Assembly (NCBI GenBank): GCA_029269725.1 | Contig: JARJHS010000008.1 | Coordinates: forward strand, 62,001 to 126,000 | Reading direction: 5' to 3' | Source of the DNA: Pollutibacter soli | Lineage (GTDB): Bacteria; Bacteroidota; Bacteroidia; Chitinophagales; Chitinophagaceae | DNA length: 64,000 nucleotides | In this document: positions 13,505 to 58,846 of the stretch, one piece after another | How the letters are laid out: every line of letters begins with the position of its first letter | How positions within the stretch are numbered: the stretch's first letter is position 1 | Program-made: the position numbers and the translations under genes | Notes under the pieces: generated by a model | Database searches by the model: none | What the model was told of the DNA's origin: nothing | Seen by the model: only the letters and a program-made list of their open reading frames with translations

Positions 13505-13534
13505 ATGGGAGGCAGGAGTAGGGAGGCAGGAGAG
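13502..13534. repeat. GGCAGGAG repeat at a gene 3' end
   Basis: TAGATGGGAGGCAGGAGTAG then GGAGGCAGGAG, starting at the deacetylase stop codon. Near-identical text follows the MFS gene at 23402 (GTAGGCAGGAGTAGGGAGGC). Confidence 0.65.
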
Positions 13535-13664
13535 TTAGAGTAAAGGATGCAGCGATAAGCTTTCGGGCTTGTAAGCTTTTTTGTTTTCGGATGCTTGTTA
13601 ATTTACGCTCGGCTTTAAATCTCCTGACTGCAATCTCCTGCCTTCTGCCTCGACGACCTCTTTG

Positions 13665-19043: not shown

Positions 19044-19147
19044 AAACGCAGGAGTCAATAAAATGATATTTAAACACCAGCTAAAATGATCGTGGTTAGC
19101 ATAGATGTTTCCTAAAGAAATCGCCTGCATTCTGAGTAAATTGCAAC

Positions 19148-19636
19148 ATGAATGAACAGGTACTGGTTAACTGGCAGAAGAAATCGGCCGAGAGGCAGAA
19201 AATTTATCAGCGTTTGCTCAACCGAGCCGATAAAAATGACGTGTTGAAAACCTTGCCTGACCTGCACGAAGAAGCCTTTGAAAAAGTCGATTGTCTCAGT
19301 TGTGCCAATTGCTGTAAAAATTATTCGCCCAGGTTCAAAACACCGGATATTAAGCGGATCAGTAAAATGATGAAGATGAAGGAAAGTGTTTTTATCGAGA
19401 CCTACCTGAACCTGGATGAAGATGGCGATTATGTGGTTAAAACAAAACCTTGTCCCTTTCTGGGAGCCGATAATTATTGTTCTATTTACGAAGATCGTCC
19501 ATCGGATTGCCGCCGGTTTCCTTATACTGATGAAGATGTAATCGTCAAACGCCAAAAGCTGACTTTAAAGAACAGTGAGTTTTGCCCGATAGTCTATTAT
19601 GTGTTGGAAGGACTTAACGACAAGCTGGGGCGCTGA
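19148..19636 (+). CDS. YkgJ-type cysteine-cluster protein (zinc/iron-chelating domain)
   Basis: 162 residues. The cluster CLSCANCCKNY supplies C49, C52, C55 and C56 (CxxCxxCC). A second group in KPCPFLGADNYCSIYEDRP and SDCRRFP completes the pattern of the CxxCxxCC-family putative Zn- or Fe-chelating domain. The C-terminal Cys in SEFCPIVYYV is also conserved in this family. The exact cofactor and role are unknown. Cytoplasmic. Ends ~95 nt before the 134-bp tandem array. Confidence 0.88.
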   Translation: MNEQVLVNWQKKSAERQKIYQRLLNRADKNDVLKTLPDLHEEAFEKVDCLSCANCCKNYSPRFKTPDIKRISKMMKMKESVFIETYLNLDEDGDYVVKTKPCPFLGADNYCSIYEDRPSDCRRFPYTDEDVIVKRQKLTLKNSEFCPIVYYVLEGLNDKLGR

Positions 19637-19731
19637 TAACAATTGCATAAAACATTGAACTTAAAACGTAAAAGGTTGATGATTCGGAAAAAGCGAATAA
19701 CGGTTTATTCCAATGGGATAGAACTTAAACA

Positions 19732-20869
19732 ATCGGACCTAAAAATGTCTTCCCTTCTTCTTGTAAAATGTTTTTGAAAGCCGCAGGTTTTTTTAACAAG
19801 AAGGCAGGAAGGCAGGAAGAAATGTTACTCTAGACCTTGTCACAATGTTGAGATACTTACAAATCAGATCTAAAAAATGTCTTCCCTTCTTCTTGTAAAA
19901 ATGTATTTGAGAAACCGCAGGTTTTATTAACAAGAAGACAGGAAGGCAGGAAGAAATGGTATACAAGGTTTTGTCGCAATGCTGAGAAAGGTACAAATCC
20001 GATCTAAAAAAATGTCTTCCCTTCTTCTTGTAAAAATGTATTTGAAAAACCGCAGGTTTTATTAACAGGAAGACAGGAAGGCAGGAAGAAACGGTATACA
20101 AGGTTTTGCCGCAATGCTGAGAAAGGTACAAATCGGCTCAAAAAAATGTCTTCCCTCCTTCTTGTAAAAATGTATTTCAAAACCGCAGGTTTTATTAACA
20201 GGAAGACAGGAAGGCAGGAAGAAACGGTTTACAAGGTTTTGTCGCAATGCTGAGAAAGGTACAAATCGGATCAAAAAAATGTCTTCCCTCCTTCTTGTAA
20301 AAATGTATTTGAGAAACCGCAGGTTTTATTAAAAGGAAGACAGGAAGGCAGGAAGAAATGGTATACAAGGTTTTGTCGCAATGCTGAGAAAGGTACAAAT
20401 CGGATCAAAAAAATGTCTTCCCGCCTTCTTGTAAAAAATGTATTTCAAAACCGCAGGTTTTATTAACAAGAAGACAGGAAGGCAGGAAGAAACGGTATAC
20501 AAGGTTTTGCCGCAATGCTGAGAAAGGTACAAATCCGATCTAAAAAATGTCTTCCCGCCTTCTTGTAAAAAATGTATTTCAAAACCGCAGGTTTTATTAA
20601 CAAGAAGACAGGAAGGCAGGAAGAAATGGTATACAAGGTCTTGTCGCAATGTTGAGAAAGGTACAAATCCGATCTAAAAAAATGTCTTCCCGCCTTCTTG
20701 TAAAAAATGTATTTCAAAACCGCAGGTTTTATTAACAAGAAGACAGGAAGGCAGGAAGAAACGGTATACAAGGTTTTGCCGCAATGCTGAGAAAAAGGTA
20801 CAAATCCGATCTAAAAAATGTCTTCCCTTCTTCTTGTAAAAAATGTATTTGAAAACCGAAGGTTCCACT
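19732..20869. repeat. 134-bp tandem repeat array, eight full units plus a partial ninth
   Basis: The anchor ATGTCTTCC recurs at 19745, 19877, 20012, 20146, 20279, 20413, 20547, 20682 and 20818, i.e. spacings 132, 135, 134, 133, 134, 134, 135 and 136 bp. Each unit has a pyrimidine block (CTTCCCTTCTTCTTGT), a core AAACCGCAGGTTTTATTAAC, a purine block (AAGAAGACAGGAAGGCAGGA) and TTGTCGCAATGCTGAGAAAG. The pyrimidine and purine blocks are partly complementary, so each unit can fold into a hairpin around the core. The array fills the space between convergent genes. The spacing drifts by 1-4 bp and is not held to multiples of 3, arguing against coding. The last unit is truncated after the core. Confidence 0.95.
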
Positions 20870-20880
20870 GCAACGGAAGC

Positions 20881-21816
20881 CTAATTATTGGCTTTGATCG
20901 TTGAATTCTCAAGTCCTTTAGGAAGCTCACCGTTTTCTGCCTGCCGCATCTCGTCACTGGTTTGTCGCGACCCATCGTGGCTCCAGCCGGGCGGACCGAA
21001 TAGATAACCCAACTTCTCCCTTATCCCAAGATCCTTTCTTTTCAGATCCTGTGCGATGGCCTGCCACTCATGAAATATTACTTTTCCGGGATTTGGTTTC
21101 TCCAACGGTTTTGTAAGGCCATATTTTATCGGCTGATATTCCTGTTCCGGAAGCTCTGCCTGGAATGTGCCAAAAATTTTGTCCCAGATGATCAGGAACA
21201 TCCCCATGTTTTTGTCGAGGTACAAGGGGTTAGACGCATGGTGCACGCGGTGATGCGATGGTGTCACCAGGAAATGCTCCAGGAAGCCCATTTTTTTGAT
21301 GAGTTCCGTATGTACAAAAATGCCCCAGATCTGTGTTGCTGAATAAACGAACATCATATCCAGCGGATGAAAGCCAACAAATGCAAGTGGAATAAAATAG
21401 AGAAACCTGTACAACGGTTGAAATACGGATGAGCGGAATCCGACAGTAAAATTCAGGTGATCTGAAGAATGATGGGTAACATGTACTGCCCAGAAAAAAC
21501 GGATCTCATGATCAAAGCGATGCAACCAGTAATACATGAAGTCTTCCGCCAGCAGCAAAGCGATCCAATACAGCAGCACTGTTTCAATTTCCATCAGGCG
21601 ATGTTCCCAGCAATAAGCCAGAACACCGAGATAAAAGCCGCGCATAAGCAGGTCCAGCAAACTGTTCATCAGCATCAGAAAAACATTGGTGAATGTATCC
21701 CTGAAACTGTACAGCTTTTTGGGCCGGTAATGGCTCAACAACAACTCCAGACCAATGATGATCATGTATACCGGCGTGCTTATCAGAAGCAGTATTTGTT
21801 CACGTAGTGATTCCAT
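20881..21816 (-). CDS. Sterol desaturase/fatty-acid hydroxylase family membrane protein
   Basis: 311 residues. Hydrophobic segments at ~8-28, 44-70 and 78-98 precede the di-iron histidine motifs H99-RFD-H103, HVTHHSSDH (112-120) and HRVHHASNP (~195). Together these form the eight-histidine signature of the integral membrane di-iron hydroxylases and desaturases (FA_hydroxylase). The substrate could be a sterol, carotenoid or fatty acid; nothing nearby resolves this. The C-terminal ~60 residues are hydrophilic. The gene ends at the edge of the tandem array. Confidence 0.9.
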   Translation of the reverse strand: MESLREQILLLISTPVYMIIIGLELLLSHYRPKKLYSFRDTFTNVFLMLMNSLLDLLMRGFYLGVLAYCWEHRLMEIETVLLYWIALLLAEDFMYYWLHRFDHEIRFFWAVHVTHHSSDHLNFTVGFRSSVFQPLYRFLYFIPLAFVGFHPLDMMFVYSATQIWGIFVHTELIKKMGFLEHFLVTPSHHRVHHASNPLYLDKNMGMFLIIWDKIFGTFQAELPEQEYQPIKYGLTKPLEKPNPGKVIFHEWQAIAQDLKRKDLGIREKLGYLFGPPGWSHDGSRQTSDEMRQAENGELPKGLENSTIKANN

Positions 21817-22152
21817 GAAGTGCCAAAAATATTAAAAAACAAATTTATAGTTCACAATAACGGACGAACGGAGAGAAAAGTACGGGGGAAGATCATAGTT
21901 GATCGTTCTTAGTTCATAGTTAGAACAGCCGGTTCATGGTTCATAGGATGGTTCAGTTGAACAGCCGGCTTAATTTGAGTTGTCAGTTGACGGTGGTCAA
22001 TTGTCAGACCTGGTGTATCTACTGGCTAATCACAGCCAGTTGTCAGGCTTTCATTTTTTTTGATTTTAAAGACTACTACCTATTCATCAGGATAATGGCT
22101 TATGTTCTGACAACTGACAACAGACAAGTAACAACTATCTTTGCCTTTCCCC
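21817..22152. other. Intergenic region with short-period text, no gene
   Basis: 336 bp between divergent genes. It contains TTCTTAGTTCATAGTTAG and GGTTCATGGTTCATAGG (21905-21951), two GAACAGCCGG copies (21926, 21971), and a TTGTCAGTTGACGG/CAATTGTCAG stretch (21980-22010). The short-period repeat CAACTGACAACAGACAAGTA (22112-22131) ends at the -7 element of the MFS gene. Confidence 0.6.
22136..22143 (+). promoter_or_regulatory. TATCTTTG -7 element of the MFS gene
   Basis: TATCTTTG matches TAnnTTTG and ends 9 nt before the ATG at 22153, implying a very short or absent leader. Confidence 0.45.
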
Positions 22153-35469: not shown

Positions 35470-35536
35470 AACCTGGCAGGTCTTTTAAACCTGGCAGGTC
35501 TTTGAAACCTCGCAGGTCTTAAACCTGGGAGGTTTA
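35470..35536. repeat. Four tandem ACCTggcAGGT hairpin units
   Basis: Units of ~17 bp, AACCTGGCAGGTCTTTTA, AACCTGGCAGGTCTTTGA, AACCTCGCAGGTCTTA and AACCTGGGAGGTTTA. Each has a palindromic core, and the cluster begins at the pbpC stop. It lies between convergent pbpC and bioA, so it may terminate both. Confidence 0.75.
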
Positions 35537-35640
35537 GACCCCCAAGGTTCACTTTCCCGGGAAATTTCTTCTTTTAATTTCGTGATTTTCGCAAGTGAAA
35601 ATCCCATAGAAATGTTATCGATTGCCGGCTTGTGGAAAAT

Positions 35641-41000: not shown

Positions 41001-41036
41001 CCAGGTATCCGATACTTGCAAGTATCGGATACCTGG
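41001..41036. terminator. Perfect 36-bp palindrome between convergent genes
   Basis: CCAGGTATCCGATACTTG immediately followed by its exact reverse complement CAAGTATCGGATACCTGG, with no loop. It sits between the sigma-unit end (40985) and the YdeI-like gene end (41110). No T-run, so it is a REP-like palindrome that may also terminate transcription. Confidence 0.8.
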
Positions 41037-43678: not shown

Positions 43679-46294
43679 ATGAATTTAGGGAACTTTACTA
43701 TTAAGGCTGCTGAAGCGATACAACAAGCTCAGCAATTAGCATTTAATTCACAGAACCCGAATATTGAAACGGAACATATACTGAAAGCATTGCTCGAACA
43801 GGAAAATTCACCTGTCGATTATTTGCTTAAAAAGAATAATGTAACAGTCAACCTGGTGGATAATAAACTGGGTGAACTGATTAATAAACTCCCGAAAACA
43901 AGTGGTGAACCTGCACAATCGATTAGTCGGGACGCCAACAGTGTGGTATTGCGTGCCGGGGCCGTATTAAAGCAGTTCAATGATGAATTCGTGACACCAG
44001 AGCATCTTGTTTTAGCGATATTGCAGGGTAATGATGCTTCTGCAAAATTGTTAAAAGATGCGGGTTTAAACGAGAAGGGGTTAATCGCATCGATCAAAGA
44101 ATTACGTAAGGGTGAAACCGTTAGCAGTCAGACACAGGAAACGCAGTTCAATGCATTGAATAAATATGCAAAGAACCTCAATGAACTTGCCCGCCAGGGT
44201 AAGCTTGATCCTGTAATAGGTCGTGACGAAGAAATAAGAAGAACACTGCATATTCTTTCCAGGAGGTCAAAAAACAACCCGATCCTTGTGGGTGAGCCTG
44301 GTGTAGGTAAAACGGCAATCGCAGAAGGTTTGGCGATGCGCATTATTAATGGTGATGTTCCGGAAAACCTGAAATCAAAAATCATTTATGCGCTCGATAT
44401 GGGGCAGTTGATAGCAGGTGCAAAATATAAGGGTGAATTTGAAGAGAGATTAAAAGGCGTCGTGAAGGAAGTGAGCACCAGCGAAGGTGAGATCATTCTT
44501 TTTATTGACGAGATACATACATTGGTTGGTGCAGGTGGTGGAGAAGGCGCGATGGATGCTGCAAATATTCTGAAGCCTGCGCTTGCACGTGGCGAACTCA
44601 GAGCAATTGGTGCCACCACTTTGAATGAATACCAGAAATTTTTTGAAAAAGATAAAGCGCTGGAAAGAAGGTTTCAGAAAGTAATGATTGATGAGCCAAG
44701 CGTGGAGGATGCAATATCCATTCTTCGCGGTCTGAAGGATCGTTATGAAACACATCACCATGTGCGTATAAAAGATGAAGCGATCATTGCTGCTGTTGAA
44801 TTGTCCAGCAGGTATATTACAGATCGTTTTCTTCCAGACAAAGCTATTGACCTGATTGACGAAAGTGCAGCGAAGTTGCGTTTGGAAATGAATTCTATGC
44901 CCGAAGAGCTCGATAAACTGGAGCGTCAGATAAGACAATTGGAAATTGAGCGCGAAGCTATCAAACGTGAGAATGATGAAGTGAAACTGAAAGAACTCAA
45001 TACAGAGATTGCAAATCTTTCTGTTGAGAAGGATACGCTGAAAGCAAAATGGAAAGAAGAAAAAGATTTAGTTGAGAAGGTGCAGTCAGCAAAGGCAGAG
45101 ATCGAAAATCTGAAGGCACAGGCAGAACGTGCGGAAAGAGAAGGCGATTATGGAATGGTCGCTGAGATCCGTTACGGGAAGATCAAGCAGCAGGAAGAAC
45201 TGATTGCAAAGCTGACAACTGAGCTGTCTTCAACAGGCGATAAAAGATTGTTGAAAGAAGAAGTTGATGCAGAAGATATCGCAGAGAACGTAGCGAAAGC
45301 AACGGGTATCCCTGTAACAAAAATGCTGCAGTCTGATAAAGAGAAATTGATTCACCTGGAAGAACATCTGCATGAAAGGGTGGTGGGTCAAGAAGAAGCG
45401 ATCACAGCTGTTGCTGATGCGATCCGCAGAAGCCGTGCAGGTTTGCATGATCCGCGTAAGCCGATCGGTTCCTTTATTTTCCTGGGTACAACAGGTGTAG
45501 GTAAAACTGAACTTGCAAAAGCGCTGGCTGAATACCTGTTTGATGATGAGAGTATGATGACCAGGATTGATATGAGTGAGTACCAGGAGAAACATACCGT
45601 TTCAAGATTGGTGGGTGCCCCTCCGGGATATGTAGGATATGATGAAGGTGGTCAGCTAACGGAATCGGTCAGGCGAAAACCGTATAGCGTGGTTTTGCTT
45701 GATGAAATTGAAAAAGCACATCCGGATGTATGGAATATTTTACTGCAGGTGCTGGATGATGGAAGATTAACCGATAGCAAGGGAAGAACAGTGAATTTCC
45801 GGAATACGATCATTATCATGACCAGTAATATCGGAAGTCACCTGATCCAGGAGGCGTTTGAGGACGTGAATGAAAACAATATTGACAAGGCTGTGGAGAA
45901 GGCGAAAGTCGAAGTGATGGCTTTGTTACGTCAGACTATAAGACCGGAGTTTTTGAACCGTGTGGATGAGATCATCATGTTCCAGCCTCTGCTGAAGAAA
46001 GAGATCAGGAATATCATCAGGATACAGCTGGAAAACCTGAAGAAGCTGGTGGGGGAGAGTGGTATCAACCTGCAGTTCAGTGAATATGCGATTGATTACC
46101 TCGCAGAAAATGGATTTGACCCGCAGTTTGGAGCAAGACCTTTGAAGAGATTGATTCAGAAGGCAATTGTCAACCAGTTATCGAAGAAAATATTGACCGG
46201 AGATATTGATAGGAGCAGGCCAGTAGTTGTGGATGTGTTTGACGGTGTTGTCGTGTTCAGGAATGATGCAGCTGCAGAGAAAGTAAGCGTTTAA
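43679..46294 (+). CDS. clpB: ATP-dependent disaggregase ClpB
   Basis: 871 residues from ATG 43679 ([14 protein letters not shown]); an upstream TTG is less likely. N-terminal Clp repeats (1-150), NBD1 with [15 protein letters not shown] and arginine-finger region, and a coiled-coil middle domain (~405-525, rich in Lys/Glu heptads). NBD2 has [19 protein letters not shown], and a C-terminal D2-small domain ends the protein. Works with DnaK to dissolve aggregates. The last codon and TAA stop lie in an AACGTAG heptad repeat; a 10-bp stem hairpin follows at 46367-46400. Confidence 0.97.
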
Positions 46295-46328
46295 CGTAGA
46301 ACGTAGAACGTTGAACGTTGAACGTAAG
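46292..46328. repeat. AACGTAG/AACGTTG heptad repeat, copy d, at the clpB stop
   Basis: TAACGTAGAACGTAGAACGT then TGAACGTTGAACGTAAG: five 7-bp units. The clpB stop TAA (46292-46294) is the first three bases. Confidence 0.8.
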
Positions 46329-46366
46329 TCGCTGATTAGGTAGAGCTATTTTAATATTAATAAAAC

Positions 46367-46400
46367 CAAAGCCATCTGCATAGTTGTGTGGATGGCTTTG
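46367..46400 (+). terminator. Hairpin downstream of clpB
   Basis: CAAAGCCATC (46367-46376), 14-nt loop, GATGGCTTTG (46391-46400): perfect 10-bp stem. A T-rich stretch follows at 46404-46408 only weakly, so termination strength is uncertain. Confidence 0.6.
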
Positions 46401-46428
46401 TGCGTTTTACGGCGAACGTGTACCAATC

Positions 46429-46483
46429 AACGAAAAACGAAAAACGAAAAACGAATTAAAGTAAAAAGTTTAAAGTAAAAAGT
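46429..46483. repeat. AACGAAA and AAAGTAA short-period repeats before a start codon
   Basis: AACGAAA units four times (46429-46456) then AAAGTAAAAAGTTTAAAGTA and AAAAGT, ending directly at the ATG of the DsbA-like gene (46484). The repeat provides the entire proximal 5' untranslated region. Confidence 0.7.
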
Positions 46484-56754: not shown

Positions 56755-57261
56755 ATGACGATCACAGCCGAACAACTCGTTGAGAATTATCATATGTCCG
56801 AACACCCGGAAGGAGGGTTTTTTGTTGAAACCTACCGCGCGAGTGAGTTTCTTCAGGAGGAATGTTTACCACTTCGCTTTCGCGGGGAAAGAGTCTTTTC
56901 AACCGCGATTTATTACCTGCTCCGGGGAAATGAATATTCCGCATTTCATCGTATTCATAGCGATGAGCTTTGGCACTTTTATTACGGTTCGTCTTTGAAC
57001 ATTTATATTCTCGATCCCTGGGGAAATTTTGAGTTGATAACATTGGGAGCAAATCTTTCAAACGGAGAAGTTTTTCAGGCGGTAGTAAAAGCAGGACACT
57101 GGTTTGCTGCCCATCCCGTCAATACAGATCATTTCTCTTTTGTCGGTTGTACCGTTGCTCCTGGTTTCAGCTTTGAAGATTTTGAAATTGCCGATCCCGC
57201 AAACCTGTCGGAGCAGTTCCCGAAGTATACTGATATGATCTGGAAATTCTCTAAACGTTGA
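56755..57261 (+). CDS. DUF985 cupin-fold protein
   Basis: 168 residues. Family-typical opening LVENYHMSEHPEGGFFVETY, then STAIYYLLRGNEYSAFHRIH, SDELWHFYYGSSLNIYIL, FQAVVKAGHWFAAHPVNTDH and FSFVGCTVAPGFSFEDFEIA. This is the cupin_5/DUF985 pattern with conserved His and Glu that could bind a metal. Substrate unknown. The stop TGA (57259-57261) is formed within an AACGTTGA heptad-repeat unit. Confidence 0.92.
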   Translation: MTITAEQLVENYHMSEHPEGGFFVETYRASEFLQEECLPLRFRGERVFSTAIYYLLRGNEYSAFHRIHSDELWHFYYGSSLNIYILDPWGNFELITLGANLSNGEVFQAVVKAGHWFAAHPVNTDHFSFVGCTVAPGFSFEDFEIADPANLSEQFPKYTDMIWKFSKR

Positions 57262-57295
57262 AAGTAAAACGTATAACGTTGAACGTTAAACGTTA
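57254..57295. repeat. AACGTTN heptad repeat, copy f, at a stop codon
   Basis: AAACGTTGAAAGTAAAACGT then ATAACGTTGAACGTTAAACG. The DUF985 stop TGA is inside the first unit. Confidence 0.75.
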
Positions 57296-58323: not shown

Positions 58324-58842
58324 ATGGTTGAAATTCGAATGGGGCACCAGATGAAAATAAGGGTTTTCTCTCTGATGAGATGCTAAGGGTTAGTGAATTC
58401 CATAAAAGTGAGATTGAGTAAGGAGGGAGCAGCCGGGCAACAGGAAGCTGAAGAGAGAAAAACAAACAGAGAACGGAAACAGTGAGTAAAAGGCAATGGA
58501 GAACACAGAGCATGGAATACAGAATAGAGTAAGTAAACGCGCCTGAAAACAGAAAACTGAAATGAAAAGAAAATTCAATATTTAAAGCTTGTTAATGGTA
58601 GAGACGTGATGCATCGTGTCTCTACGATTAACAAGCAAAAGGAAGACAGGTAGAAAATCTGATACTGAAATCAGGATCTCTGCATAGTATCTGCTGCCTG
58701 GAAGAGAAACAGAAAACAGAAACGGAAACAGTGAAGAAAGCAAAATGACCTGACTTCTAAATCTCCTGCCTGCTGCCTCCTATGAACTATGAACTATGAA
58801 CTAAGAACTAAGAACTATGAACTAAGAACTATGAACTAAAAA
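58324..58842. other. Intergenic region rich in repeats
   Basis: 519 bp. It contains two near-copies of a GAGAAAAACAAACAGAGAAC / GAAACAGAAAACAGAAACGG text (~58455 and ~58705), the palindrome 58587-58636, a CTCCTGCCTGCTGCCTCC block (58762-58780) and the GAACTATGAACTA repeat. No gene seen. Confidence 0.65.
58587..58636. repeat. 50-bp near-perfect palindrome (REP-like)
   Basis: GCTTGTTAATGGTAGAGACG and CGTGTCTCTACGATTAACAAGC arms around TGATGCAT; only one mismatched pair plus wobble positions. Both the outer GCTTGTTAAT and inner GTAGAGAC arms pair exactly. No T-run. Short mobile or structural palindrome. Confidence 0.82.
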
Positions 58843-58846
58843 CTAC
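58781..58846. repeat. GAACTATGA/GAACTAAGA 9-bp repeat spanning a stop codon
   Basis: Seven units of TATGAACTA/GAACTAAGA, period 9. The TAG stop of the TSUP gene (58843-58845) is in the last unit. Confidence 0.8.

Follow-up and report, generated by a model that had tools for sequence, protein, structure and literature searches.

A tandem array fills most of the 1,244-bp gap between two convergent genes of Pollutibacter soli, whose stop codons lie at 19636 (plus strand) and 20881 (minus strand). Where does such an array come from, and does it serve the genes around it? We analyzed it within a window, a stretch of 64,000 nucleotides from this genome (6.12 Mb, 37 contigs; G000), and followed its arms through the rest of the genome, a sister species, and more distant relatives.

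Structure of the array

The array consists of eight complete units of 132–136 bp and a partial ninth (Table 1). TRF gives a period of 134, 8.4 copies, 93% matches, and a score of 1792, and the anchor ATGTCTTCC is found nine times, at positions 19745, 19877, 20012, 20146, 20279, 20413, 20547, 20682, and 20818, with a step of 132–136 bp. The nine anchors and the TRF score exclude a chance origin of the array. Together with the Pfam matches of the flanking genes, these data confirm the earlier note, which had described a ~134-bp array of eight units plus a partial ninth between convergent YkgJ-like and sterol desaturase genes; its view of the locus as hairpin-forming, non-coding, and tandem is also supported. 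Minus-strand ORFs of 112, 106, and 102 amino acids run across the array. The protein-coding reading was rejected because the 132–136-bp units change the reading frame from unit to unit, and these ORFs serve as a warning against annotation as genes.

Table 1. Coordinates of the array, its units and flanking genes in the window, and of related copies on other contigs of G000
Feature	Location	Strand	Evidence or description
134-bp tandem array, eight complete units + partial ninth	19741..20864		TRF and unit list
Flanking gene, PF03692 CxxCxxCC (YkgJ-like)	19148..19636	+	Pfam match, E 1.7e-14
Flanking gene, PF04116 fatty acid hydroxylase (sterol-desaturase-like)	20881..21816	-	Pfam match, E 2e-26
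Unit 1 hairpin (Y arm, loop, R arm), most diverged unit	19745..19822	+	Unit list; covariance model, 84.8 bits
Unit 2 hairpin	19877..19956	+	Unit list; covariance model
Unit 3 hairpin	20012..20091	+	Unit list; covariance model
Unit 4 hairpin	20146..20224	+	Unit list; covariance model
Unit 5 hairpin	20279..20358	+	Unit list; covariance model
Unit 6 hairpin	20413..20492	+	Unit list; covariance model
Unit 7 hairpin	20547..20626	+	Unit list; covariance model
Unit 8 hairpin	20682..20761	+	Unit list; model; predicted fold of 20678-20812, -36 kcal/mol, z -3.40
Partial ninth unit, Y arm and half loop	20818..20864	+	TRF, anchors; weak model match 20818-20884, 19.8 bits
Example spacer (54-56 bp, R arm to next Y arm)	20762..20817		Unit list
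Array with family arms	C4:129.0-129.5 kb		80-bp period, 6.8 copies
Array with family arms	C33:411.9-412.2 kb		82-bp period, 3.3 copies
Array with family arms	C33:48.0-48.2 kb		86-bp period, 3.1 copies
Single copy	C23:36.3 kb
Half copy, Y arm only	C36:269.9 kb

Each unit includes a pyrimidine arm (Y), a loop of 31–33 bases, a purine arm (R), and a spacer of 54–56 bases. In most units the R arm, which reads ACAAGAAGACAGGAAGGCAGGAAG, is made of three octamers, ACAAGAAG-ACAGGAAG-GCAGGAAG. The Y arm has two octamers and therefore, judging by sequence, could pair with the R arm in two registers. The loop motif GCAGGTTTT is present in all eight complete units, and the partial ninth unit reads GAAGGTTCC. 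The arms had been proposed to vary around a nearly constant core. This holds for the Y arm, where the variants CTTCTTC, CTCCTTC, and CGCCTTC are present as described; it does not hold for the outer purine block paired with it, GGCAGGAAG, which is constant across the variants.

Pairwise identity is 89.7–98.5% among units 2–8 and 81–84% between unit 1 and the rest. Such a pattern would be expected if inner tandem units become homogenised. Among units 2–8, variable columns number 8 of 81 in the hairpin and 11 of 57 in the spacer. In a whole-genome DNA search (E ≤ 0.001), matches to the array are confined to its hairpin parts, the spacer having none. The spacer was rejected as a part of the ancestral element: beyond AAACGGTA, the window spacer matches the loop of the sister species no better than resampled sequences do (30–90% of nulls equal). 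The left flank was also considered as a decayed further unit. Its similarity to the unit-1 spacer is suggestive (4 of 1000 nulls), but spacers 2 and 8 give no support (76 and 109 of 1000), and this candidate was rejected.

Hairpin strength is uneven. Over the eight units and both strands, z ranges from -0.79 (unit 1) to -4.26 (unit 6), with units 1 and 5 weak. By a simple stem score, the first 300 bases of the array do not beat 20 shuffles (9 against 10), which counts against calling the array an exceptional hairpin. The same score was applied to window gaps of 40 bp or more, with the array trimmed to 300 bases and long non-convergent gaps to 700. The best stem beats 20 shuffles in three of 10 convergent gaps, in 6 of 18 codirectional ones, and in none of nine divergent ones, an outcome suggesting that the window commonly has stems at gene ends.

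For the suggested non-coding RNA repeat, there is no Rfam match at threshold and no convincing covariation. The array region has 13 Rfam matches with E ≤ 1, all to microRNA families and far below the gathering score, and seven related loci have none at the gathering score. In alignment A1 (13 of the 21 listed hairpins, also the source of the covariance model), none of eight pairs has compensatory changes. Alignment A2 includes three of seven window elements, two of seven from C4, one of three and one of two from C33, and three from the sister species picked by eye. Here both sides change in 2 of 16 pairs, equalled by 53 of 500 shuffles, and there are three such cells (15 of 500 shuffles); the covariation score is likewise reached by 15 of 500. 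Paired cells make up 87.5% vs. 85.7% in shuffled alignments (15 of 500 as high) and 40–60% when the alignment is slid. The A2 statistics are weak and depend on a structure drawn up by the analyst.

The window contains several other repeats. A convergent gap at 35470–35540 holds 3.7 tandem copies of the 18-bp unit AACCTGGCAGGTCTTTTA, each a mini-hairpin; the unit core AACC..GCAGGT is similar to AAAACCGCAGGTTTT, the core of the loop in the 134-bp array. A second convergent gap contains a perfect 36-bp palindrome, CCAGGTATCCGATACTTGCAAGTATCGGATACCTGG (41001–41036), and a third (13510–13643) has purine-rich 31-nt inverted arms (AGGCAGGAG.. / ..CTCCTGCCT) that are 77% complementary and recall the array arms. 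Simple repeats with 7-, 14-, and 21-base units (AACGTAG, AACGAAA, CTATGAA) are found at 46288–46483, 57254–57293, and 58780–58845, and similar AACGTTG heptamers occur in one locus (L297) of the sister species.

Related copies in the genome and in relatives

The array arms recur in G000 at four more complete loci, three arrays with periods of 80–86 bp and one single copy, and in one half copy (Table 1). A 15-base arm pattern with at most one mismatch has 42 matches in G000 vs. 4 for the backwards control. The copy count is based on this pattern and on model scoring of 116 of 6351 candidates, a procedure that strongly diverged copies may escape. Three pattern matches with one mismatch (C12:872416, C33:255325, and C23:58010) resembled coding sequence by eye and were dropped.

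The building block of the family is a purine-rich sequence of 24–32 bp built of octamers: ACAAGAAG comes first, RCRGGAAG-like octamers next, and AA and ACGGTA last. In most arrays the blocks alternate in orientation, and an inverted pair could fold as a hairpin or cruciform. At the further loci, arrays begin or end in either arm. When one chosen representative per complete locus is compared with the others (five in all), the Y arms share 88% identity on average, the R arms 80%, and the loops 45%; the loops appear too diverged to reveal a recent common element.

Four of the five complete loci in G000 lie in convergent gaps, and the fifth lies between codirectional genes; heuristic ORFs of 120 amino acids or more define 45 gaps in the window, 10 of them convergent. 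The neighbors at the further loci are (i) a YkgJ-like paralogue and UPF0102, (ii) an ORF without a Pfam match and an M23 peptidase, (iii) a CBS protein and a Cys/Met PLP enzyme, all three pairs convergent, and (iv) an ORF with no match over the cut-off followed by a PD-(D/E)XK protein, codirectional. At the four convergent loci, the distance from the nearer stop codon to the start of the repeat is 16, 5, 1, and 14 bp, and that from the other stop codon is 104, 13, 19, and 21 bp.

In the sister species (G152), a purine block of 30–33 columns is observed at three sites other than the orthologous gap of the array. The covariance model detects a 136-bp-period array (best E 7.5e-7, significant) where contig C752 ends, a 118-bp-period array on C385 (E 0.086), and a half copy on C310 (E 0.038), the last two not significant alone. 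Local alignments of the window block ACAAGAAGACAGGAAGGCAGGAAGAAACGGTA with the three stretches score 37, 39, and 40, and each score is reached by none of 500 resampled sequences, a null that represents the chosen stretch and not the whole genome. On C385 the R blocks follow one another directly in tandem, and no clear Y arm is present; therefore, pairing is not required for amplification.

Two orthologous gaps of G152 are empty. Its YkgJ-like and desaturase-like genes converge with no repeat between them, their stop codons being 32 bp apart, and its gap between the second YkgJ-like gene and UPF0102 is 62 bp vs. 303 bp in G000. The orthologous comparison covers these two sites, as the CBS gene of G152 has another next gene and its M23 gene is followed by ~500 bases of contig. 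Both comparable sites carry the element in one sister species and lack it in the other. In four other genomes, the matches to the YkgJ-like and desaturase genes are convergent, and their ends are ~19 (G162), ~48 (G166), ~81 (G163), and ~336 (G161) bases apart.

Outside G000 and G152 there are scattered single matches, and a wide distribution of the family was rejected, since the backwards controls of the genus and phylum searches give about as many matches or more. A 16-base arm has 21 occurrences in G000; of 146 other genomes sampled from the family, three have it, each in a single place. Paired inner arms are found at 16 places in G000 and in none of 40 other genomes of the genus, where the backwards control has single matches in three of 40. 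The search of 395 phylum genomes finds 25 other genomes with matches, 24 of them with one match each, and the backwards control has a match in ~35 (counted from the list). The exception is G451, with an inverted repeat at 15 places that is unrelated to the family; its arms, in the first few places listed (including L226), are like CTTCTTGTCTGTG / CACAGACAAGAAG. A model match in G162 (E 1.1e-5), which falls within a long ORF, was set aside as chance. The covariance search gave 19 further genus genomes matches with E 0.07–1, at 116 candidates per genome and with stricter filters that weak copies may escape. In 80 loci of named relatives (739 kb, the best 80 of 149), the model has four matches, all with E 0.52–0.99. 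One locus from another Chitinophagaceae MAG (L139, 7191–7404) carries 3.2 copies of a 66-bp tandem unit with palindromic stretches; thus, relatives also have tandem hairpin arrays that differ in sequence.

Origin and possible function

The array probably arose by local amplification of one member of a family of short intergenic inverted repeats that is low in copy number, restricted to the genus, and REP/BIME-like in architecture; it is most likely mostly neutral. The observed basis is the dispersed inverted blocks, the tandem arrays, the absence at two orthologous sites, and, in a small sample, the location at gene 3' ends. Once the sister species had split off, a copy would have reached the gap that the array now fills, and may then have multiplied along with ~54 bp of adjoining sequence. 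Slippage or unequal exchange is the likely process because of the pattern of unit identity. A mostly neutral repeat would be tolerated at gene 3' ends, where it would give a 3'-UTR hairpin on either transcript. Variation of copy number among strains, expected in the earlier note, would be consistent with the alike inner units and the empty orthologous gap of G152.

Several observations stand against this explanation: the copies are few for a REP family, no association with a transposase was found, the loops are too diverged, C385 has no clear Y arm, no target-site duplication is visible by eye, and the first 300 bases of the array do not beat shuffles in stem score. Neutral spread also does not predict that two of the five complete loci are behind the two YkgJ-like paralogues.

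A possible but doubtful alternative is that a cellular transposase moved the repeat as a miniature element of the MITE or REPIN type, and that tandem growth came later. The inverted arms and the non-orthologous sites in two sister genomes would fit such mobility, but no fixed ends were seen, with arrays starting and stopping in either arm, and no target-site duplication was seen by eye at five loci, the empty sites being too diverged for comparison. None of the four PF01797 (Y1 transposase) genes of G000 has the element nearby: the model has no matches up to E 10 within ~1.5 kb on either side, and the three matches of the arm pattern there (at most three mismatches; two in L043 and one in L044) are not family members by eye. 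Inverted repeats of other sequence are present beside the PF01797 genes in L043 and L044.

Another scenario assigns the hairpins a function as a bidirectional 3'-end element that stops or slows converging transcription or protects both mRNA 3' ends, strengthened by repetition. It is compatible with the origin proposed above and differs from the mostly neutral reading in function; we regard it as rather unlikely. Convergent gaps hold four of the five complete loci, 1–16 bp from the nearer stop codon and 13–104 bp from the other, and this points to such a role, as do the presence of stems that beat shuffles in some convergent and codirectional window gaps but in no divergent one and the stronger conservation of arms than of loops. 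However, no U-tract follows the stems by eye. A consensus terminator scan of 19100–21900 finds one site, inside the YkgJ-like gene, and none in the array (shuffles average 3.0), and the same two gene pairs do without the repeat in the sister species. A more specific and quite improbable variant is that the octamer arms, with period 8 and kept across loci and two species while the loops drift, are the binding site or substrate of a dedicated protein. The arrays would then be barriers of tunable length that insulate converging transcription units from each other, and the insulator would evolve through expansion of the repeat.

Both YkgJ-like (PF03692) paralogues seen in G000, at 19148–19636 of the window and at 1860–2393 of locus L038, have an array directly 3' and in the same orientation. 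A cis-regulatory or small-RNA device of YkgJ-like genes is nevertheless very improbable. All five genus-mates searched have two PF03692 genes each, neither G152 copy has the array, and the other loci adjoin unrelated genes. The pattern was noticed after the fact, and we take it as a coincidence. Tandem direct repeats of such size can bind proteins, but nothing was found in favor of the nucleoid-protein, replication, or segregation site that had been suggested, a reading we find hardly credible: the arms recur at several ordinary, unrelated gene ends, so a dispersed repeat fits better than a dedicated site, and the array is absent from the orthologous site of G152.

The repeat family extends the gathering and expansion of intergenic inverted repeats at gene 3' ends to a branch of Chitinophagales whose named relatives are mostly metagenome bins. 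If the arrays do change transcription between converging genes, the repeat number would be a simple tuning dial. At present, the main use is in annotation and, possibly, as a strain marker.

Comparison with known repeat families

Among the closest counterparts are the REP/BIME elements of the GTAG and CGTC superfamilies, as described in PMC3733652. Like these, the array family is extragenic, lies mainly 3' of genes and in convergent gaps (four of five loci), and forms alternating inverted units and tandem clusters with flanking DNA, the R-only array on C385 of G152 being an exception. The same paper places conv-REPs mostly <20 bp from both 3' ends and reports large REP clusters reiterated in tandem together with flanking DNA. 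In contrast to REP/BIME, no GTAG or CGTC tag is seen by eye at the hairpin ends of the family (21 hairpins and the 13 of A1), which start with (C)ATGNCTTCC or ATGCATTCC and finish with GGAAG, GGAAGAAA, and similar sequences. A single block is an R or Y run and no palindrome, so that both blocks are needed for pairing. The copy number also differs: it is often >100 for REP/BIME, and five complete loci and one half copy were found in G000.

REPINs with RAYT transposases are described in PMC3116915 as forming ordered tandem clusters that take in flanking sequence; the array family shares this feature, and its inverted pair also makes a long hairpin. Unlike REPINs, it has no REP stem in each half and few copies, none of them beside a PF01797 gene. 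According to PMC6006769, one class of Y1 transposases, mostly from Bacteroidetes, has atypical flanking structures with copies elsewhere. Like MITEs, the elements of the family are short and non-coding, have inverted arms, and are scattered over intergenic sites, but no constant centre, target duplication, or parent transposon was found. The arms, one purine and one pyrimidine, leave a purine octamer spare as a possible third strand, and in this they recall the intrastrand triplex repeats of PMC4666352. The motif given there is G/C-rich and of other sequence, whereas the array arms are interrupted purine runs.

We recognised no description of the family among the papers listed in searches of open-licence literature. 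It is a repeat family without the usual REP tags and transposase neighbor. Thus, the architecture is that of REP clusters, but the tag, the single-unit palindrome, the transposase, and the copy number all differ, and the family is therefore filed as a new one, of short intergenic inverted repeats, and not as REP or REPIN.
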